64,000 nucleotides of DNA, taken from positions 806,001-870,000 of the forward strand of contig NZ_JAMXLE010000001.1 in assembly GCF_024055895.1 (NCBI RefSeq), read 5' to 3'. The notes under the pieces were generated by a model. That model worked only from the letters and a program-made list of their open reading frames with translations, ran no database searches and was not told the DNA's origin. The translations under genes were made by a program, and so were the position numbers. Source of the stretch: Rhizobium sp. L1K21. Its GTDB lineage: Bacteria; Pseudomonadota; Alphaproteobacteria; Rhizobiales; Rhizobiaceae. Shown here piece after piece: positions 7,376-58,824 of this stretch. Position 1 is the stretch's first letter, and the number at the start of each line of letters is the position of its first letter.

Positions 7376-7496
7376 GACATACCTGACATTTTTTCGTTCA
7401 TTCCAGCTAACCCGCTATTTCTAAGGCATTATGACAGTGGTGGAGATTGCTGCATTCCCGGCAGCCAAAGGCACGAACGTCCTCTCGAAATTAATA

Positions 7497-7511
7497 TGAG
7501 TTGGATTGTCA
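7497..7511. promoter_or_regulatory. Candidate IRO/RirA box (TGA-N9-TCA)
   Basis: TGAGTTGGATTGTCA fits the rhizobial iron-responsive operator TGA-N9-TCA recognised by RirA. It lies 70 bases before the DUF2325 gene that opens a small operon containing an IsdG/ABM-type putative heme monooxygenase. Only six bases are specified by the motif, so a chance match is possible. Confidence 0.3.
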
Positions 7512-7580
7512 TGTTTATACTTTACTCGAATACTCAAGTTATATAACGTCACCACCAATCACAGGATTGGAGGTGAGACA

Positions 7581-7961
7581 ATGGGGAAAAAGAAGAATCG
7601 CAAACCGCAGCAGGAAGCGTCGTTTGAGGTGGGCTCGAGCCCTGCTGAAAACGGTGCGGGCGTTCGCAGCTTTCTCTATGTCGGCGGACGGGATTGTCAG
7701 GTTGCCCATCTGCGCAAGATTGCGCAATCACATGGTGCCGAATTGATCCACCACGATGGCGGTCTTCGTGAGGCGGTGAGCCGCATTGATACCGTTCTTC
7801 CCTCTGTCGATTGTGTTTTCTGCCCGATCGACTGTATCAGCCATGATGCGTGTTCGCGCGTGAAGTCAGGCTGCAAGAAACATGGAAAGCGTTTCATTCC
7901 GTTGCGCAACGGTTCCAAATCCAGCCTGGCGCGGGCGCTTGACGAACTCTCCGGAAGGTAA
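7581..7961 (+). CDS. DUF2325 domain protein
   Basis: This 126-residue protein starts at ATG 7581 behind GGAGGTGAGACA. After a basic tail (GKKKNRKPQQE) it carries the DUF2325 core: FLYVGGRDCQVAHLRKIAQSHGAELIHHDGG, then CVFCPIDCISHDACSRVKSGCKKHGKRFIPLRNGSKSSLARAL. The VGG and the His/Cys-rich middle are typical; the cysteines could bind metal. The family has no settled function. Here it leads a four-gene, tightly spaced set (next start 9 bases later) with a putative heme monooxygenase and a VOC protein, and a candidate iron box lies upstream, so a link to heme or iron metabolism is a reasonable guess. Confidence 0.8.
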   Translation: MGKKKNRKPQQEASFEVGSSPAENGAGVRSFLYVGGRDCQVAHLRKIAQSHGAELIHHDGGLREAVSRIDTVLPSVDCVFCPIDCISHDACSRVKSGCKKHGKRFIPLRNGSKSSLARALDELSGR

Positions 7962-7969
7962 ATCTCAAA

Positions 7970-8212
7970 GTGAAAGACAGTGACGACAGGCGGTTTGACA
8001 GCGGTCAGCCGCTCTTCAGGCTGCATGATATGGCAGCCCAACGCGGCGATGGGCTGATCCCTCAACTGCGCGATCTTTTCATGGGCGAAATAGAGCGGCG
8101 ACCAACCGGAGACAACATTGTTGTTTTTCCTGCCGTTGAGCGTGACACTTCGCTCAAATTTCCCGATGCCGCGGAGGTGGTTGACCTCACGGCCCGCCGG
8201 GTCAAAGATTAA
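7970..8212 (+). CDS. Conserved-looking hypothetical protein (80 aa)
   Basis: This 80-residue protein starts at GTG 7970, nine bases after the DUF2325 stop, with GGAAGG upstream. It is soluble, without signal peptide or cysteines, with a helical middle (MAAQRGDGLIPQLRDLFMGEIERR) and a beta-rich end (NIVVFPAVERD, AEVVDLTARRV). No family is recognised. Its place between DUF2325 and the ABM-domain gene, with 22 bases to the next start, argues it is translated as part of the operon. Confidence 0.6.
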   Translation: MKDSDDRRFDSGQPLFRLHDMAAQRGDGLIPQLRDLFMGEIERRPTGDNIVVFPAVERDTSLKFPDAAEVVDLTARRVKD

Positions 8213-8234
8213 ACGAAAGACAGGAGTGACAACG

Positions 8235-8552
8235 ATGTTCGTTGCGATGAACCGTTTCAAGGTCGCCAAGGGGTCCGAAGAGCGATTTGAAGAAATCTGG
8301 CGCAGCCGCGATTCGAAACTGAAGGAAAATCCCGGTTTCGTGCAGTTCCACCTTTTGCGCGGCAAGACATTTGATGAAGAAGGCTACACGCTCTTCGCAT
8401 CTCATACGATCTGGGAGCGTGCTGAAGATTTCGAGGCATGGACGAAATCGGAGCATTTTCGCGAGGCGCACAAGAATGCGGGTCAGCACCGGGAAATCTA
8501 TATGGGGCCCCCGGTTTTTGAAGGCTTCAGTTCTGTTGAGGGGATCAGTTGA
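8235..8552 (+). CDS. Antibiotic-biosynthesis-monooxygenase-fold protein, putative heme-degrading monooxygenase
   Basis: This 105-residue protein (ATG 8235, CAGGAGTG upstream) is a single ABM/IsdG-fold domain: FVAMNRFKVAKGSEERFEEIWRSR at the start, then NPGFVQFHLLRG, YTLFASHTIWERAEDFEAWTKSEHFREAH. This matches the HmoA/HmuQ/HmuD-like proteins that cleave heme to release iron in rhizobia and brucellae; the conserved Trp and terminal His-containing helix are present. It would act as a cytosolic dimer. The neighbours are DUF2325 and a VOC protein, and no heme transporter is in view, so heme as substrate is inferred from the family. Its stop overlaps the next start as TTGA. Confidence 0.8.
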   Translation: MFVAMNRFKVAKGSEERFEEIWRSRDSKLKENPGFVQFHLLRGKTFDEEGYTLFASHTIWERAEDFEAWTKSEHFREAHKNAGQHREIYMGPPVFEGFSSVEGIS

Positions 8553-51526: not shown

Positions 51527-52642
51527 CTACCGGTCGAGCACGTCGCGGATTTCAGTGATGTTGGCGCGCACGCGCAGAATGTAAAAGCCCATTGTGGCGA
51601 GGTGGGTCGGCATGATCCAGCCGTCTTCACTGCCGTTGGAGATAATGGCGGGCTGAATTCTCAAGGCAGACTGAAACTGCTTGTCCAGGCGATCCCAAAG
51701 AGAGCCGACATTGCGTTCACGCACGACATTGGAGAAGTCGGAACGGGCAGCCTCGAGAATGCCGTAATAGGCGTAAAGCTGGCCGTAGGCGAACCAGAAG
51801 CGGTCATCAGCGCGTGTGTCGAACCAGCCGGAGCTGTAGTTTTCGGACCGTTCGCGCAGAATGTCGGAGGTCGAGCCCAGGTCGTTGGCAATGCGATCAA
51901 GGAAGCTCATCAGGTTATCGGCGCGACCATCAAATACGGCATCGCAATTTTCAAGCGATGAATTGAACTTGCGCAGATCCTTCATGGCCGAGCGGTAGAA
52001 GCTCGGTGAGGGGGTCTTGGGTCCGAAGGGGCTCAAACCAAAATACCAGGTATATTCATCGAACTGCAGATTGCCGCGGGCGTTCTGAAGGTCGCTGTTG
52101 ACCGCCGATGTGCCGCGCACACGGCCGAGCGTATCCACCAGTTCGACAGCTGTGCGGCGAAGCGCCTGGTTGATGCCGCGCTGGAAGCTTGCCTTGTTGT
52201 CGAGGAAGGGCGTGTCGTCCCAGTCGAGACCGAAGAGCCCCATCTTGTAGGCAATCATGGAGGAGATCCAGGCGTTCTGATTGACGTTGAAATCGATAAG
52301 ATCCGCCGTTACTGCCACGATGCCTGAATTTTCACACTTCCTGCCGGAAGCGTCGCCTGTCAGCTGCTCCCCGGCAGAAGCTGTACGTTTTGAAAATTCA
52401 TATTTATCGGGATAGGCGGCGTTGAAGTTCGTCCAGCTTTCCGCCTGCACGATAAAGTAGCCGTACAGTAGCGCGAGGCCGATCAGCACCAGCGCAATGG
52501 GTCCCTTGATCACCCAATGGCGACCGCGAAACCAGCGGGTGATGGCAACAAAGGGCCAGGCAAGCCAGCTTATGAAGATGCCGAAGGCACGGCCGATGCG
52601 CAGAAACATCCCTTCGAAAAACATGATGATGGGATCAAGCAT
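51527..52642 (-). CDS. DUF2333 family membrane-anchored protein
   Basis: This 371-residue protein has one strong membrane helix near residues 45-65 (GPIALVLIGLALLYGYFIVQ) after an amphipathic aromatic N-terminus. The large C-terminal part looks periplasmic (SWTNFNAAYPDKYEF, CENSGIVAVTADLIDFNVNQNAWISSMIAYKMGLFGLDWDDTPFLDNKASFQRG, ENYSSGWFDTRADDRFWFAYGQLYAYYGILEAARSDF). The family is conserved in proteobacteria without known function. GGAGG precedes ATG 52642, which overlaps the DUF6638-like gene by 8 bases. It is the last gene of the AAA ATPase operon and the only one with a membrane anchor. Confidence 0.8.
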   Translation of the reverse strand: MLDPIIMFFEGMFLRIGRAFGIFISWLAWPFVAITRWFRGRHWVIKGPIALVLIGLALLYGYFIVQAESWTNFNAAYPDKYEFSKRTASAGEQLTGDASGRKCENSGIVAVTADLIDFNVNQNAWISSMIAYKMGLFGLDWDDTPFLDNKASFQRGINQALRRTAVELVDTLGRVRGTSAVNSDLQNARGNLQFDEYTWYFGLSPFGPKTPSPSFYRSAMKDLRKFNSSLENCDAVFDGRADNLMSFLDRIANDLGSTSDILRERSENYSSGWFDTRADDRFWFAYGQLYAYYGILEAARSDFSNVVRERNVGSLWDRLDKQFQSALRIQPAIISNGSEDGWIMPTHLATMGFYILRVRANITEIRDVLDR

Positions 52643-53933
52643 GGGTAGGGCCTCCAATACCGTATAGCCGCTGGCGGAATGTTTTCTTGTCTTTCAGATA
52701 TGTGTCTGCGAGCGTGCTGACAACATGTTCCCTGAACATTTCGCCGAAGTGCTCATAGCTATCGTAGAAGCCCTGCTTGTCAAACACAAAGCGTGATACA
52801 TAGTCGCGCGGTGTCAGCTGCGCAATCAGGCGACCGACAAGCCAGAAATCGGGATGATCGGGCTTTGCGCGCACGGCGAGAAAACGCCATTTGTGTGGAA
52901 TGTCGTTGATATTGGCCTGACCGGTCTGCGCGAGTTTGCGGCTAAGATCCTGAAGGAACGGGTAGGAGCCTTCCTCCGCGACCAATCCGACGTGGCGCGA
53001 GAGCCATGTCTGGCGCCAGATCGGATCGCTGGCCTTGAAGTCTGCGTCGGCCACGGTCTCGCGGATCAGCCCTTCCAGCGTCATGTTGGCACGGTGCTGC
53101 AAAAGGCCGGTGGCTGCCGCCCAGGAGCCGCGCGGCAGTTCTATGCGGCCCGAACGCATGAGGAATTCAAAGACGCGCTTATGATCGTCGATGGGGATAT
53201 AGCTCACCTGCCACGGGCGCGAGCGCCGGAAGCCGGGCGCATCCTTGTCGCAGATCACGGTCGCGTCGCGGCCTTCGTGGAAAATGTAAACGCCACCGAA
53301 GTGGTTGGCCCAGTAGCTTTCGTGACGGAAGACGAGCTGGTCGGGGACCAGCTTGTTTTCGCGTATGTCGCCGGTCTTTTTGGCCAGCTCCACCATGCGG
53401 TTCAGCATGGCATCGTCGCGCCATGCATCCGGTTCGGCCTTCAGCCGATCGACGAGACCCCGCAACTCCGCGGCCCGGCTCAAAATGTCTTCTGCAGAGA
53501 GGACACGAAAAGAGACTTCATTGATCTTGAGTAGGTCTTCAAGTGTATCGACCTTGGCGACGCTATCCTCGATCTCGCCATAGAGCGCATCGCGGATGGT
53601 GACTGCGGAAATCGCTCGCGCATTGGCCTCGTAAAATTCGTGCATCAGGCCGGCGGTGTTGGAAAAACTCGTATGCACCACCGGCAGGTTCTCCTGATCC
53701 GGGGTCATGATGATGAAACGGCGGTTCACCTTGAGCGGGTCAAGATAGTCCTTGTCGTTGAGCTCGGACGCCACTTGCGGCGAAAAGCCGGTCATGTCGA
53801 TTTCGAATTCGCTGAGCCTGGTTTCCGGCAGGCCAAAGCCTTTCATCGCCTTGTTATAACGCTCGACAAGATGCGGCTCGGAAATGGTGAGCAGGCGTCC
53901 ATAAATCAGTTCGGCTTCCAGGAGGCGCTGCAT
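52635..53933 (-). CDS. DUF6638-like conserved protein of the AAA operon
   Basis: This 432-residue soluble protein has no membrane segment or signal peptide. A helical N-terminal region (MQRLLEAELIYGRLLTISEPHLVERYNKAMKGF) is followed by a mixed alpha/beta body with FRHESYWANHFGGVYIFHEGRDATVICDKD, PWQVSYIPIDDHKRVFEFLMRSGRIELPRGSW and IPHKWRFLAVRAKPDHPDFWLVGRLIAQLTPRDYVSRFVFDKQGFY. I associate it with DUF6638 by size and gene order; confidence in the family name is moderate. ATG 53933 lies one base after the antitoxin stop, and its AAGAG ribosome-binding site is inside the antitoxin gene. It overlaps the DUF2333 gene. Confidence 0.72.
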   Translation of the reverse strand: MQRLLEAELIYGRLLTISEPHLVERYNKAMKGFGLPETRLSEFEIDMTGFSPQVASELNDKDYLDPLKVNRRFIIMTPDQENLPVVHTSFSNTAGLMHEFYEANARAISAVTIRDALYGEIEDSVAKVDTLEDLLKINEVSFRVLSAEDILSRAAELRGLVDRLKAEPDAWRDDAMLNRMVELAKKTGDIRENKLVPDQLVFRHESYWANHFGGVYIFHEGRDATVICDKDAPGFRRSRPWQVSYIPIDDHKRVFEFLMRSGRIELPRGSWAAATGLLQHRANMTLEGLIRETVADADFKASDPIWRQTWLSRHVGLVAEEGSYPFLQDLSRKLAQTGQANINDIPHKWRFLAVRAKPDHPDFWLVGRLIAQLTPRDYVSRFVFDKQGFYDSYEHFGEMFREHVVSTLADTYLKDKKTFRQRLYGIGGPTHA

Positions 53934-53934
53934 G

Positions 53935-54342
53935 CTACTCTTCACTCGGTCCTTTTTCTTCGCGATTCCAGTACAGGTCGTCGAGGTCGAGTTTCAAGAC
54001 ATCCGCGATCGATTTCAACGCGGCAATGCTGCCGTCTTTCTTGCCGGTTTCGATTTCTGAGAGATATGCGGGGCTCAGTCCTGCCTTCGCCGCCAGTTCC
54101 TTTGCCGTCAGCCCGCGAAAGTCGCGCCACACGCGCACAGGGCTCTCGCCATCAATCATGCGGCTGACGTATTCGGCGGGGACAAGTTCCTCTTCACCTG
54201 CCGCAACGCGCGCCTCATGGCGGCGGATTGCTTCCATGTCCTCCAGATCTTCGATCCGCTCAATCAAGGCGTCATATTGTGCTCTGGTCAAAACGATCAA
54301 TTCCTCGCCACCTGGCGAGACGAAAGAAACTGCCTTATTCAT
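53935..54342 (-). CDS. Xre-family antitoxin
   Basis: This 135-residue protein has a Phd-like N-terminal segment (VSFVSPGGEELIVLTRAQYDALIERIEDLEDMEAIRRHEARVAAGEE) and a C-terminal Xre helix-turn-helix (LTAKELAAKAGLSPAYLSEIETGKKDGSIAALKSIADVLKLDLDDLY, residues about 80-125). The ATG at 54342 overlaps the toxin stop as ATGA. It should bind and neutralise the RelE-like toxin and, via the HTH, repress the pair at the 19-bp palindrome upstream. It ends one base before the next operon gene, so read-through could couple it to the host operon. Confidence 0.88.
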   Translation of the reverse strand: MNKAVSFVSPGGEELIVLTRAQYDALIERIEDLEDMEAIRRHEARVAAGEEELVPAEYVSRMIDGESPVRVWRDFRGLTAKELAAKAGLSPAYLSEIETGKKDGSIAALKSIADVLKLDLDDLYWNREEKGPSEE

Positions 54343-54605
54343 AGGTCTATTCCCTTATAAACGTCGCCGCGGGGCGCAACCCGGACAACATCGACCACAG
54401 TGCCGTCTTCCTTGAAAATCACCCGCCAGTCACCGATACGCAGCCTGTAATAATATCCGCCCTGAAGCTTCTTGATATTGTTGGCAAGCGATGCCGGGTC
54501 ATTGGCGTATTGTGCCATTTTCGATCTGATGCGTTTTGCGTCATTGGCTGGCATCCTGCTCAGGTTTTTGCTGGCTTCCCGACTATATATAATAGTTTTC
54601 TGCAC
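54339..54605 (-). CDS. RelE/ParE-superfamily toxin
   Basis: This 88-residue basic protein matches the RelE fold: TIIYSREASKNLSRMPANDAKRIRSKMAQYANDPASLANNIKKLQGGYYYRLRIGDWRVIFKEDGTVVDVVRVAPRGDVYK. The YRLRIGDWRVIF strand and C-terminal basic residues are typical; family members cleave ribosome-bound mRNA or act on gyrase. GTG 54605 lies behind GGAG. The toxin-first order with an Xre antitoxin resembles HigBA-type modules. It lies inside an otherwise conserved operon. Confidence 0.88.
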   Translation of the reverse strand: MQKTIIYSREASKNLSRMPANDAKRIRSKMAQYANDPASLANNIKKLQGGYYYRLRIGDWRVIFKEDGTVVDVVRVAPRGDVYKGIDL

Positions 54606-54634
54606 TATAGCCGCTCCAGCAAGACTTTCAATAT

Positions 54635-54653
54635 AATTCGCTAAAAGCGAATT
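54635..54653. promoter_or_regulatory. 19-bp palindromic operator of the toxin-antitoxin pair
   Basis: AATTCGCTAAAAGCGAATT is a perfect inverted repeat (8-bp arms, AAA spacer) lying 29 bases before the toxin start and 4 bases after the AAA ATPase stop. A TATATT-like -10 element follows in the minus direction. The position fits autoregulation by the Xre antitoxin. Confidence 0.7.
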
Positions 54654-54657
54654 TCTG

Positions 54658-56574
54658 CTACACCTGCCACCTCCCATCCTTCTTCATGGTCTCGATTTCG
54701 CGGATGGCCTTCTCGCGCTGGCGTTCGCGGCGGATGATCTCTGAGACTGCTGCGTCGTCTGACTTATCTGTGTAGCGGAATTCGCTGTCAGCGTAGCGGT
54801 TGATTTCCTGCAGCACGATATCGATGGTGATCGGTCCGCGCAGCGCCTCGATCATGGCCTTCTTCTCATCGTAGGGTTTGTGCATAAAGGATTCCGGGGT
54901 TTCGAACCATTCGTCCGGTAATTCCACATCCATGGTGCGCATCTTGATGGCATCGGTGATGTTCTTGATGGCGCGACCGGTGAAGCGTGGCTCGGCCTGT
55001 TTGATGCGATGGAGATAGGTGCCGATATCGGCAAGCGTCTTGACCGCGCCGATTTCCTTCTCGAAAGTATCCCAGACGGCGCGTAAGCCTTCTTCCTGCG
55101 GGCGCGTGTAGCTCGAATAGGCTTCCGACACCGCCTTTTGAATTTGCTGAGCGGCAAAAAGTTCATGATCGCCCAGCGGAATCCTGTGGTTCTTGCCGGC
55201 AAGCAGGGCGAATATGTCAATATAGTCGTCGCGTGTTTGCGGGCCGTCCACCAGCCAGCGGGCACCTGCGCGCTGGCGCAGCGCATCATCGACATTTTCG
55301 GGATAGTTGGAGAACATGCCGAAAGAGCAATTGCCGCGCACAACGGTGGATGCACCGGCGAAACTCTCCATCAGCACTGCGGTTACTTCCTGCTGACCGG
55401 CAGAGGCGCGGTCGTCGGAGCGTTTGGCGGCCACCTGGTCGATATCGTCAATCGTGCCGAAGCCGATGGCGCGCGGGCTCATTACATTGTTGATGAATTC
55501 CTTGGCGTTCTGACCGGATTTTCCCTGATAGGAAGAAATCTGGTCGACGCCGAAATTTTCATAATGGAAAGCATAGCCCGCGACCTCACAATAATCGTTC
55601 AGCAGGCCCGCGATCATCTGGATCAGGATCGTCTTGCCGGTTCCCGGATTACCGTCGCCGATGAAGGTGAAGAGGAAGCCACCGAGCTCGACAAACGGGT
55701 TCATCTGCCGGTCGAAATCGTAGGCCATCAGCATCTTGGCAAGCTTGAGCGCCTGATATTTGGCGATGTGATTGCCGATGATTTCGTTCGGTTTCTTGAA
55801 GCTCATCACCAGCGGCTTGCGCTTGGTGCCGGGTGCGACATCGAAGCCGTTCAGATCGAAATCATCCTGATCGATGCGAATATGGGTGTTTTCGAAGCTC
55901 GCCAGACTGGTGAAGCGCGCCTTGCGGGAAATCAGTCCCTCAAGGGCCTCACGCACGAAGGCTTTGGCGCGGGCCGTCATGGCGGTTTCGTCGGGCGAAC
56001 CGGCAATAGCCTTGTCGAGGCCGGAGATCAGCGATTTCAGCGCATCCTGCGGCGTGTCGAACAGGAAATCCGGCTCATGCGTGTCGTTGACCGGCTCCGT
56101 TTCGCCATCGATTTTAACACCGAGATAGGCACTAAAGGTGAAGGCTGCGATATAGGCGGATGCGGCCAGGAGTGACTTGAACCGTGTTGCCTCATCCCCG
56201 GCGAGTGGAGCTGATGCATTGCGGCTTTTGAGCGTTTCCAGATCGGTCTGTTCGGCGAAGACATCGGCTATGGCCAGCGCAATCTGCAGGCCACGCCGGG
56301 CGCGATAGAGCAGCGTGTGCTGCGCAATGGTCATCAACGGATCGCCGGGGGGAATGGACTGGATTGTCCGGGCGAGTTCCACCTCGCGGGTGCGGCGCGT
56401 TGGCGTGGAAGACACAGTGGAAATGAAACGGCGACCTGTGCCGGCAAGCGCACTTTTCGCGCCCGGATCATCCGCTTCAATGATCACCATGCGCGTCACC
56501 AGCGATTGTGCGGCTGCCTGATGTTTGGCGATATCGTCTTCGTGGATCGTGGTGAGGCCTGCATTGAGCGCCAT
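54658..56574 (-). CDS. AAA-family ATPase of an uncharacterised operon
   Basis: This 638-residue protein has an N-terminal helical region (1-230) and an AAA ATPase core with Walker A GDGNPGTGKTILIQMIAGLL (about residue 315), Walker B IGFGTIDDIDQVAA, a sensor 1 asparagine in GMFSNYPENVDDALRQRAGARWLVDGP with an arginine-finger-like RQRAGAR, and a C-terminal lid with ITDAIKMRTMDVELPDEWFETPE. It should remodel protein partners using ATP. GAGGAG precedes ATG 56574, 10 bases after the upstream unknown gene. The neighbours are a coiled-coil protein and DUF2333. The toxin-antitoxin pair begins right after its stop. Confidence 0.85.
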   Translation of the reverse strand: MALNAGLTTIHEDDIAKHQAAAQSLVTRMVIIEADDPGAKSALAGTGRRFISTVSSTPTRRTREVELARTIQSIPPGDPLMTIAQHTLLYRARRGLQIALAIADVFAEQTDLETLKSRNASAPLAGDEATRFKSLLAASAYIAAFTFSAYLGVKIDGETEPVNDTHEPDFLFDTPQDALKSLISGLDKAIAGSPDETAMTARAKAFVREALEGLISRKARFTSLASFENTHIRIDQDDFDLNGFDVAPGTKRKPLVMSFKKPNEIIGNHIAKYQALKLAKMLMAYDFDRQMNPFVELGGFLFTFIGDGNPGTGKTILIQMIAGLLNDYCEVAGYAFHYENFGVDQISSYQGKSGQNAKEFINNVMSPRAIGFGTIDDIDQVAAKRSDDRASAGQQEVTAVLMESFAGASTVVRGNCSFGMFSNYPENVDDALRQRAGARWLVDGPQTRDDYIDIFALLAGKNHRIPLGDHELFAAQQIQKAVSEAYSSYTRPQEEGLRAVWDTFEKEIGAVKTLADIGTYLHRIKQAEPRFTGRAIKNITDAIKMRTMDVELPDEWFETPESFMHKPYDEKKAMIEALRGPITIDIVLQEINRYADSEFRYTDKSDDAAVSEIIRRERQREKAIREIETMKKDGRWQV

Positions 56575-56584
56575 GATTTTCTCC

Positions 56585-57718
56585 TCACACCTGGCTGACG
56601 ATATTGTGGCCCGAAATCACGTGGACCTTGTAGCCTGCAAAGATGTTGTCGGCCTCGCCCTCGGCATAGAGCGCCTGATAGGCATCGTGGGGAACGAGGG
56701 CATGTTTTTCATAAAGGCTGACGCCTTGCCGGGTGGCTTCCAGATCGTCGGTATTGATGTGGAATTCTTCTTCCGCCGGTGTGGATGAAAACCAGCCGCT
56801 TTTGGCCGGCTTCTCGTTTTTGGAAAAGACTTCCTGCACGGTCCAGGTCAGAACCCAGGCGTTTTCGGGCTTGCGCACCTTGGAAATGATATCGTTCACG
56901 CGGGCATTGTTTTCCGTAATACCGGCTGAATAGAAGGGGCCGAGAATGGCGCGCTGCAGGCGCTTGGGATGCAGGTCGGCAAAATCCCGGTCGAGGTTCC
57001 GGGCGATTGTCAGTGGTGACAGGCCGTAGGCGCTGTTCTTTTCAGCAAACGCGTCGAAGGGTTTGGCAAGCTCGGGGTTTAAAAGTCCTCCAACGGGCAA
57101 CTGGATCTCGACATCCTCATTCAGCGTGCCATCTTTCGTCACCAGAATGTCGGCGATTTTCGGAGACGAATCCTCTGTCACCAGCGCGTAGATGATTGGC
57201 AGCATCTGCGAGCCGTCAAACGTTGCCCACCGCACCCCATAGGCAGGGCGACGCGTCTTGGTGTTGACGTCGACATTCACCGTTTCGGGCAGGATGAAGG
57301 GCGAAAAAAGCTGGCCTTTACCGATTTCCTCAAGGTAGAGCCGCTCGGCCATGCGGGCTTGCAGATCGGATGGGAAGGACTTCTGGCGCAGAATGAAATC
57401 GGCCATCTCCTCGCGCAGCAGGTCGGCTGCGGGAATGGCGGAGAGGCGTTCGGGGGCGGTTTTGCGGTCGTTTTCCAATTCCAGCAGGTTCTGGAAAACC
57501 GGAAAACCGCTTTCTGCGCGGGAAATGCGGAACTGCTCCATAAAGCCGAGGCGATTGCGCCAGCAGGCAAAGGAGGTTGCCAATCGCTCCACATAAGGCC
57601 CCATGATCCGGCTCGCCCGGTTCACCTCGGTGTCCATCGAAAGAAACCGCTGCAAACCATCGAGCGCGGCTTCCATCGACTGGAAATAGTGTGCAGCGGT
57701 GGGGGACTGTTCGTTCAT
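56585..57718 (-). CDS. Conserved-looking unknown protein of the AAA operon (377 aa)
   Basis: This 377-residue soluble protein has a helical N-terminal half (MEAALDGLQRFLSMDTEVNRASRIMGPYVERLATSFACWRNRLGFMEQFRISRAESGFPVF) and a beta-rich C-terminal half (AYGVRWATFDGSQMLPIIYALVTEDSSPKIADILVTKDGTLNEDVEIQLPVGGLL, WVLTWTVQEVFSKNEKPAKSGWFSSTPAEEEFHINTDDLEATRQGVSLYEKHALVPHDAYQAL). No motif for catalysis is seen. It sits between the coiled-coil gene (17 bases) and the AAA gene (10 bases), so it is a fixed partner of both. The family is not recognised. Confidence 0.72.
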   Translation of the reverse strand: MNEQSPTAAHYFQSMEAALDGLQRFLSMDTEVNRASRIMGPYVERLATSFACWRNRLGFMEQFRISRAESGFPVFQNLLELENDRKTAPERLSAIPAADLLREEMADFILRQKSFPSDLQARMAERLYLEEIGKGQLFSPFILPETVNVDVNTKTRRPAYGVRWATFDGSQMLPIIYALVTEDSSPKIADILVTKDGTLNEDVEIQLPVGGLLNPELAKPFDAFAEKNSAYGLSPLTIARNLDRDFADLHPKRLQRAILGPFYSAGITENNARVNDIISKVRKPENAWVLTWTVQEVFSKNEKPAKSGWFSSTPAEEEFHINTDDLEATRQGVSLYEKHALVPHDAYQALYAEGEADNIFAGYKVHVISGHNIVSQV

Positions 57719-57735
57719 TTCAGATGCCGAAGACC

Positions 57736-58824
57736 TTATTTCTGCACGTAGTCAGCGGCGTTGTGCTTATCCATCACGTCCTTGAAGCGGCGGGCAAAAG
57801 CATCGTCTGCGAGCTTCTTGCGGCGTTGAATATCCTGGGTGGAGAGCATGTTCTTCTCATGCATTTCCAAGAGGTCGCCAATGTGGCTCTGGGCAGCGGC
57901 GCCAATACCGGCCATGGTCTCTTCAGCGGCCGTGTCCACCTGGCTGCCGAGCGTGTTGATGCGGTGGGCAACGTCCTGCTGGGCTGCGGTTTTCAGCGAG
58001 TCTTCCAGCGCCTTGTACAGCACGATGCGCTGCTCGGTATCGATGGTCAGCTTGTTGATCAGCGTGTTTTGCGCGGCAATCTGGTTGTTCAGCGAATCCA
58101 CGAAGGTCTGGAACATTGAGGTGTAGCGCTCCAGCGTCTGGCTTTCGGCCAGAAGCTCCTGCTCTTTGGCCTGCATCTGGTTATATTCGGTCGCCATGGC
58201 CGAGCGCTCGCTTTCCAGGTCTGCGCGGGTCTGCTGGTCGGTGGAGGAGGCGATCTTGTTTTCAATGTCCATGAGCATTGGATTGAGTTCTTCAATGCGC
58301 TTTTGCGTCTGTTCAAGTGCGTCCAAGGTTGACTTGCGGCGCTCGATCACCTGTTTCAGGCTGGTTTCGGAATTGGCGTAGCGCTCTTCGAGTACGCTTT
58401 TCTGCTCGCGCAGAATGCCGACGATCGTGTCTGACTTGGCAAGCAATTCCTGCAGGTTACCGGCCAGCGACATGTTGCGCACACGGTCGGTGCGCATGCG
58501 CTGGGCGCGCTGCTTTGAGAAAATGCCGACGAACTTCTCATAACCGGAGAAGGTCTTCATGCTTTCGAATTCTTCGCCGAAGACGTTGGTCGCATCTTCC
58601 AGCCCGATGATCAGGTCGGCAATATTGGCCTCCATCACCTTCTGCTGTTTCAGCACATCCTGAATGCGGGCGTTTTCGATATCGAAATTGGCATCGCCGA
58701 TTTTCGTTTCGGCCTTGGAAAATTCGTCGAGAACCTTGCCGGATTGTTCGAGCTTGCCGCGCATCTCGCTGACAACAGAACGGGTCTTTTCGATTTCGGA
58801 ATCGAGCGATTGAAGCGTTGCCAT
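57736..58824 (-). CDS. Long coiled-coil protein leading the AAA operon
   Basis: This 362-residue protein starts at ATG 58824 behind AGGGGACG. It is nearly all helix with heptads from about 1-60 and 120-270 (LEERYANSETSLKQVIERRKSTLDALEQTQKRIEELNPMLMDIENKIASSTDQQTRADLESERSAMATEYNQMQAKEQELLAESQTLERYTSMFQTFVDSL). There is no signal peptide or membrane helix. The overall helical build and central LxNKL-type region recall TelA-like toxic-anion-resistance proteins, but the match is weak. It is the first of five co-directional genes and may be a scaffold for the AAA ATPase. Confidence 0.75.
   Translation of the reverse strand: MATLQSLDSEIEKTRSVVSEMRGKLEQSGKVLDEFSKAETKIGDANFDIENARIQDVLKQQKVMEANIADLIIGLEDATNVFGEEFESMKTFSGYEKFVGIFSKQRAQRMRTDRVRNMSLAGNLQELLAKSDTIVGILREQKSVLEERYANSETSLKQVIERRKSTLDALEQTQKRIEELNPMLMDIENKIASSTDQQTRADLESERSAMATEYNQMQAKEQELLAESQTLERYTSMFQTFVDSLNNQIAAQNTLINKLTIDTEQRIVLYKALEDSLKTAAQQDVAHRINTLGSQVDTAAEETMAGIGAAAQSHIGDLLEMHEKNMLSTQDIQRRKKLADDAFARRFKDVMDKHNAADYVQK

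Follow-up and report, generated by a model that had tools for sequence, protein, structure and literature searches.

A strictly conserved AAA ATPase operon of Rhizobium sp. L1K21 with alternating membrane partners and a recurrent cassette slot

A stretch of 64,000 nucleotides from Rhizobium sp. L1K21 (contig NZ_JAMXLE010000001.1, positions 806,001 to 870,000; hereafter the window) carries at positions 51527..58824 an operon that encodes a coiled-coil protein (cc), a 377-residue protein (u377), an AAA ATPase (AAA), a DUF6638 protein, and a membrane protein of the DUF2333 family. The operon is real and strictly conserved, its gene order being kept far beyond chance, and it is undescribed as far as the literature was searched (few subscription journals were covered). 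Its last gene alternates between two membrane protein families, DUF2333 and DUF1523, and the junction between AAA and DUF6638 is a slot for small genes, toxin-antitoxin pairs among them. We tentatively propose, at somewhat less than an even chance, that cc, u377, AAA, and DUF6638 make up an ATP-dependent machine that, together with a protein of the inner membrane, serves stress proteostasis or envelope maintenance, the slot being a separate landing site.

Results

Gene order and co-occurrence of the operon

The five genes named in an earlier note on the window are all present on the minus strand without internal stops. Their spacings are exactly as it described (17 bases between cc and u377, 10 bases between u377 and AAA, and an 8-base overlap of DUF6638 with DUF2333, the latter read from ATG 52642), and Pfam agrees with its family calls for DUF6638, DUF2333, and AAA. 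The genes, in operon order, are:

57736..58824, minus strand: cc, coiled-coil protein of 362 amino acids, first gene of the operon (open reading frame; 33-84% identity to 15 relatives)
56585..57718, minus strand: u377, 377 amino acids, no known family (open reading frame; nothing matched in Pfam, NCBIfam, PADLOC, or PHROG within the limits applied)
54658..56574, minus strand: AAA, ATPase of 638 amino acids with a long, unassigned N-terminal part and an AAA domain (PF00004 E 1.2e-11; Pfam match at residues 308-438)
52635..53933, minus strand: DUF6638 protein (PF20343 E 9.9e-71)
51527..52642, minus strand: DUF2333 protein of 371 amino acids with one transmembrane segment (residues 49-67) and cysteines 103 and 233 (PF10095 E 2e-21)

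An alignment of relatives' starts favours ATG 53933 as the start of DUF6638; GTG 53945 is also possible.

We compared the window with 110 further loci, comprising 20 from relatives, 10 from a sample of the phylum, and 80 named loci that are biased to close relatives because they are the best 80 of 521 confirmed. Four loci cut by contig ends (L047, L095, L105, and L129) are left out of the count of complete loci, which is 107. Two genomes are counted twice (L032 and L063, and L038 and L099, have identical AAA); each pair very probably comes from one genome that is present in both of two collections, and therefore the 107 complete loci represent 105 distinct ones. In a six-frame profile search of all 111 loci, the order cc, u377, AAA, DUF6638, membrane gene is found in 107 of 107 complete loci, the fifth gene being DUF2333 in 96 and DUF1523 in 11. 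Loci that appear to hold three genes are an artefact of the open-reading-frame caller, and the six-frame search recovers DUF6638 there.

Profile searches of 299 genomes of the phylum recover AAA, u377, and DUF6638 from one identical set of 20 genomes. The earlier note had treated the genes as one unit and had named a failure to co-occur as what would speak against it; the invariant order and the shared 20 genomes bear the unit out. The cc gene is found in all 20 AAA-bearing genomes and in five others. A diverged cc adjoins DUF2333 in four genomes with no AAA gene (G033, G250, G395, and G051; loci L193, L194, and L195, and G395 by coordinates), and in G350 the cc match reaches a marginal E-value only. 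Like L193, L194, and L195, locus L220 keeps a strongly diverged cc beside DUF2333 after loss of u377, AAA, and DUF6638.

A search of 151 genomes (Rhizobium sp. L1K21 and 150 relatives) finds a match to AAA in 63; the match in G064 is short and marginal, and that in G016 is a fragment lying at the end of a contig. Full-length matches within the family are 68-81% identical to the AAA of the window. Many of the relatives examined have the operon in one recurring location, flanked by tdk and an extensin-like gene. It is spread over Rhizobiales, including Sinorhizobium meliloti, and another alphaproteobacterial family (code f60), and Vibrio plasmids carry a four-gene core of cc, u377, AAA, and DUF6638. 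On a 0.88-Mb Vibrio parahaemolyticus plasmid (L250, NZ_CP062152.1 120000-165000), that core lies near genes annotated secA, mfd, and recN.

The AAA protein

The AAA protein passes the PF00004 cut-off and is filed here as an AAA-domain protein with a variant Walker B. The Walker A motif GDGxPGTGKT, which conforms to GxxxxGK[T/S], and the Asn-containing motif FGMFSN, termed sensor 1, are present in 109 of 109 AAA proteins. The arginine-finger motif of the second region of homology (DDALRQRAGAR-type) is present in 108 of 109. The nearest solved structures are VCP-like and proteasomal ATPases, reached by weak matches to PDB profiles (best E 2e-5). Residues 135-153 form a borderline hydrophobic stretch by hydropathy, which we read as a buried helix. 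In PADLOC, AAA gives weak matches to TRIP13 (E 3e-4) and IetA (E 0.006).

The u377, DUF6638, and cc proteins

For u377, there is no Pfam match up to E 1 and no match among PDB sequence profiles. One relative shows a match to DUF2161 (E 0.077), a hint of PD-(D/E)XK. An AlphaFold2 model of u377, with a mean predicted local distance difference test score of 91.2 and a predicted template modelling score of 0.89, is helical to about residue 133 and continues as a mixed alpha/beta part. The best PDB profile match of DUF6638 has E 0.042 only. In PADLOC, u377, DUF6638, and DUF2333 have no match up to E 1, and matches of cc are at E 0.25 or weaker.

The cc protein passes no Pfam cut-off and has no significant PDB match; its NCBIfam matches are to SMC-type coiled coils and lie below the cut-off. 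Of two candidate identities, TelA was rejected and PspA/ESCRT-III has no sequence support. For TelA (PF05816), there is no Pfam match, and hhalign gives probabilities of 0.1% and 1.8% (13 columns). For PspA/IM30 (PF04012) and ESCRT-III Snf7, Pfam and PDB searches likewise return no match and no significant match, respectively.

The membrane partner: DUF2333 or DUF1523

The earlier note had pictured a cytosolic scaffold, an ATPase, and a membrane or periplasmic component. The AAA ATPase and the single transmembrane segment of the last gene product fit this picture; DUF2333 as its membrane component turns out not to be obligate, with DUF1523 taking the place in 11 loci, neither family found beside the core on two plasmids, and DUF2333 present without AAA in 59 of the 68 genomes, among the 299, that encode it. 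The 11 DUF1523 loci comprise nine of family code f60, one of f41, and one from outside the class (G196), and Pfam confirms DUF1523 in three of three loci tested. On a tree of AAA (109 rows, quick method, the two identical rows dropped), the exchange between DUF2333 and DUF1523 is a single change. Hydropathy gives one strong transmembrane segment in the DUF2333 of the window and one or two in three DUF1523 proteins. We read DUF1523 as the replacement of one membrane partner by another, in which case the two would be functionally equivalent.

Among aligned operon copies of DUF2333 other than that of the window, 96 of 96 retain cysteines 103 and 233, against four of 20 copies from loci that lack the core. 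Since the pair is kept in operon copies and mostly not elsewhere, a disulphide in the periplasm is plausible.

In five of five other genomes of the same genus, and in G008, DUF2333 alone is left at the syntenic locus of tdk, a cytochrome c gene, and the extensin-like gene; in G021, DUF2333 and a diverged cc remain there. The five same-genus genomes share with the window a DUF2333 that points the opposite way to tdk, whereas operon and tdk run in the same direction in nine of nine loci where both were found among the 20 loci from relatives. By parsimony, the shared orientation favours loss of the core in the other sampled species of the genus over its gain in the window. As a side observation, one distant genome of the phylum has a PspA gene and a stand-alone DUF2333 gene some 2 kb apart (L206:4770-5450 and 7457-8449), possibly by coincidence.

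A cassette slot between AAA and DUF6638

The earlier note counted five genes in 51527..58824; the range holds seven, a ParE-type toxin and an XRE antitoxin having been overlooked. AAA and DUF6638 are therefore not adjacent in Rhizobium sp. L1K21. The features of the slot in the window are:

54637..54651, minus strand: 15-bp inverted repeat, putative antitoxin operator (related motif in other RelE/XRE slots)
54604..54631, minus strand: sigma70-like putative promoter of the toxin-antitoxin pair (pattern match, 10 of 12 consensus bases)
54339..54605, minus strand: ParE/RelE-type toxin (PF05016 E 3.3e-8; PHROG RelE-like toxin E 3.5e-16)
53935..54342, minus strand: XRE antitoxin with a helix-turn-helix domain (PF01381 E 2.7e-11; 4-base overlap with the toxin gene)

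A ParE-type toxin beside a DNA-binding antitoxin (PF05016, PF01381) is the arrangement of a type II toxin-antitoxin pair. One base separates the antitoxin stop from the preferred DUF6638 start. The toxin start is uncertain: GTG 54605 overlaps the putative -10 element, and the open reading frame as listed starts at 54677. The sigma70-like promoter is weak taken alone, as one is seen against 0.6 expected in shuffles. The inverted-repeat motif lies near the start of nine of the 10 other RelE/XRE slots (10 of 11 with the window) and in none of 43 slots with other content, by a pattern that was shaped on the same sequences.

Of the 110 loci that have both AAA and DUF6638, 55 have more than 300 bases between the two genes; the other 55 slots are empty, and the core is kept. 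Toxin-antitoxin genes fill 24 slots and DUF559 genes 23, with no overlap between the two, and eight hold other content. The 24 comprise 11 RelE/XRE slots including the window, nine RelBE, three VapBC, and one MqsR-like gene alone. Pfam confirms representatives of these classes (ParE and XRE in L059, ParE and ribbon-helix-helix in L060, PIN and Phd in L092, and DUF559 in L032). The MqsR-like open reading frame in L050 and L083 is our own reading; the L050 copy has no Pfam match, and the L083 slot holds that frame alone. All recognised cassette genes are co-directional with the operon, and in 12 of 12 cassette-bearing junctions inspected the cassette sits after the stop codon of AAA and before the start of DUF6638. 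Profiles of ParE-type toxins give 20 matches in the slot and none elsewhere over 2157 kb, a contrast flattered by profiles seeded from the slot, which could miss unrelated toxin families in the flanks; one XRE match lies downstream of the operon. The whole genome of Rhizobium sp. L1K21 has three ParE-family matches.

Close relatives differ in what the slot holds. Loci L059 and L060 are 93-97% identical in DNA over cc, u377, and AAA, 92% over DUF6638, and only 79% over DUF2333; L059 carries a RelE/XRE pair and L060 a RelBE pair, and the two cassettes are 51% identical in a forced alignment. On the AAA tree, the fewest changes are eight for RelE/XRE, six for RelBE, three for VapBC, 15 for DUF559, and 11 for any toxin-antitoxin cassette. 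Some cassettes are possibly truncated, with a short toxin frame in L082 and an antitoxin that aligns over 70 residues only in L094. The slot of S. meliloti Ak57 holds an endonuclease-domain gene and an ISRm16 transposase. Other junctions are also used: Fic/DOC-type genes lie between u377 and AAA in L108 and L129, and an SPFH/band-7 gene lies between cc and u377 in two of 111 loci (L050:4480-5385, by Pfam; L082:7798-8580, by similarity, with an open frame). From these comparisons we conclude that the slot is a recurrent landing site, where toxin-antitoxin or DUF559 cassettes appear to have come, gone, and replaced one another; recombination through the conserved genes on either side is the probable route. 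Apart from this, one genome (L038/L099) has in its slot a 566-amino-acid open reading frame on the opposite strand, which we read as phospholipase D/cardiolipin synthase-like, unlike the small co-directional cassettes.

Discussion

A proposed machine at the inner membrane

We propose that cc, u377, AAA, and DUF6638 form a four-protein, ATP-dependent machine in the cytosol, located at the inner membrane and coupled to a membrane protein, DUF2333 here and DUF1523 in other lineages. AAA would form a ring and remodel or extract a client, cc would serve as a scaffold or an adaptor, and u377 and DUF6638 would be obligate cofactors; the membrane protein could be an anchor or a sensor. The machine may serve in stress proteostasis or envelope maintenance. 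The membrane partner, together with a heat-shock-like motif that some loci carry upstream of cc, indirectly suggests a role in envelope stress. Taken with the slot, this suggests an operon that both encodes a stress machine and offers small selfish genes a place to land. A bolder version is doubtful: that the operon encodes a new kind of ATP-driven, trans-envelope machine, in which an AAA ring, two constant partners, and a coiled-coil scaffold would act through interchangeable DUF2333 or DUF1523, with the cassettes as guards.

Several observations weigh against the proposed stress machine. The classical AAA Walker B is hhhhDE with a catalytic Glu. In 109 of 109 AAA proteins of the operon it departs from that form, reading DD instead of DE, and in a profile alignment the D falls on the E of a VCP-like ATPase. 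This invariant DD would be expected to slow hydrolysis, or AAA may act as a switch and not as an unfoldase. The AAA domain also matches PDB entries weakly, with a domain E > 0.1 in one search. In the search of 151 genomes, the AAA gene is found in none of the five other genomes of the genus, and the core lacks representation in many relatives. No DUF2333 or DUF1523 gene lies within the fetched flanks of the four-gene core on the Vibrio parahaemolyticus and Rhizobium leguminosarum plasmids. The promoter evidence is also restricted. The region upstream of cc has a CTTG-spacer-TATAT-type motif, which we take to resemble heat-shock promoters, in 25 of 108 loci, as against 0 of 712 upstream regions used as controls, an optimistic contrast since the narrow pattern was shaped after viewing the sequences. 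Of the 25 motif-bearing loci, 24 are related and Rhizobiaceae-type, with one genome present twice. A looser pattern is found in 35 of 108 loci with redefined starts against 41 of 712 controls; before the starts were redefined, the count was 44 of 108, where simple shuffles lead one to expect 4.7. The window has neither the narrow nor the looser motif upstream of cc. A stricter alphaproteobacterial RpoH consensus fits one of 108 loci. One study reports many RpoH-type promoters in S. meliloti (PMC3616915), which were not used to assign the motif.

Alternative explanations

The main functional rival is defence against phages or plasmids, in which the AAA complex would sense infection, the membrane protein would be the effector, and the toxin-antitoxin, Fic, and DUF559 genes would mark a defence locus. 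The patchy presence within a family, the insertion of such genes in the operon, and the core on large plasmids are what defence would lead one to expect. Against it, no PADLOC family fits the core proteins beyond the weak TRIP13 and IetA matches of AAA and the weaker coiled-coil matches of cc; the location between tdk and the extensin-like gene recurs, with AAA 68-81% identical within the family; and no relative was found in phage records or, in one pattern-based scan, in viral contigs. We consider defence quite unlikely. Still less probable is a membrane remodeller of the ESCRT-III/Vps4 kind, in which cc would polymerise on membranes and AAA would disassemble it. An AAA protein with a conserved coiled-coil protein and a membrane partner is the expected set, and the SPFH/band-7 gene in two loci and a PspA gene near one (L048) point the same way. 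However, cc gives no Pfam match to PspA/IM30 or Snf7 and no significant PDB match, Pfam reports no MIT-like domain, and, by similarity to two PspA proteins, PspA is near only one locus with the operon and lies outside the operon.

Two further alternatives concern parts of the locus. DUF2333 might be an independent housekeeping membrane protein that merely shares a promoter with the four-gene core, as its presence in 68 of 299 genomes, of which 59 lack AAA, its sole survival in the five same-genus genomes, and the plasmid-borne core without it would allow. We regard this as unlikely: DUF2333 is last in 96 of 107 complete loci, the other 11 have a different membrane protein in that place, and the cysteine pair largely separates operon copies from the others. 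Somewhat less improbable, though still on the unlikely side, is selection of the toxin-antitoxin cassettes as addiction modules that keep a loss-prone core in the genome. The slot takes toxin-antitoxin pairs of at least three types, co-directionally and differently between close relatives, the core is missing from many relatives, and two reports describe toxin-antitoxin guards of CRISPR-Cas (PMC9458426, PMC10097628). Set against this are the 55 of 110 loci that keep the core with an empty slot, the use of the slot by DUF559 genes and, in one strain, by an insertion sequence, which fits a merely tolerant landing site, and the cassettes that look truncated (L082, L094). The four-protein machine with a separate landing site is our working proposal.

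Implications and comparison with known systems

Because DUF2333 and DUF1523 alternate, a single functional hypothesis can cover both of these orphan membrane families. Close relatives with a different toxin-antitoxin pair in the slot, or with none, form a natural series in which the disputed role of chromosomal toxin-antitoxin pairs in addiction can be put to the test. The model symbiont S. meliloti carries the operon, and its function can be tested there directly.

The literature searched describes no function for the operon and has no paper on DUF6638; DUF2333 appears there in work on type VI secretion. Among known systems, TelA (PF05816) is presumably similar to cc in length and coiled-coil make-up; the profile-profile probability of 1.8% over 13 columns sets them apart. 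The CreTA-type guards of CRISPR-Cas share with the slot a toxin-antitoxin unit tied to the locus of another system, but the slot alternates ordinary protein toxin-antitoxin families. The PspA- and Vps4-type AAA associations described in a survey of the phage shock protein system (PMC11237479), likewise place an ATPase gene beside a coiled-coil gene and have membrane partners, but cc is neither PspA nor Snf7 by Pfam; the main text of that survey does not mention DUF2333 or DUF1523. CDC48/VCP and the proteasomal ATPases, the best though weak PDB profile matches, share Walker A, sensor 1, and the second region of homology with the AAA protein of the operon, which differs from them in its constant partners of no known function, its long, unassigned N-terminal part, and a Walker B that reads DD in 109 of 109 proteins.

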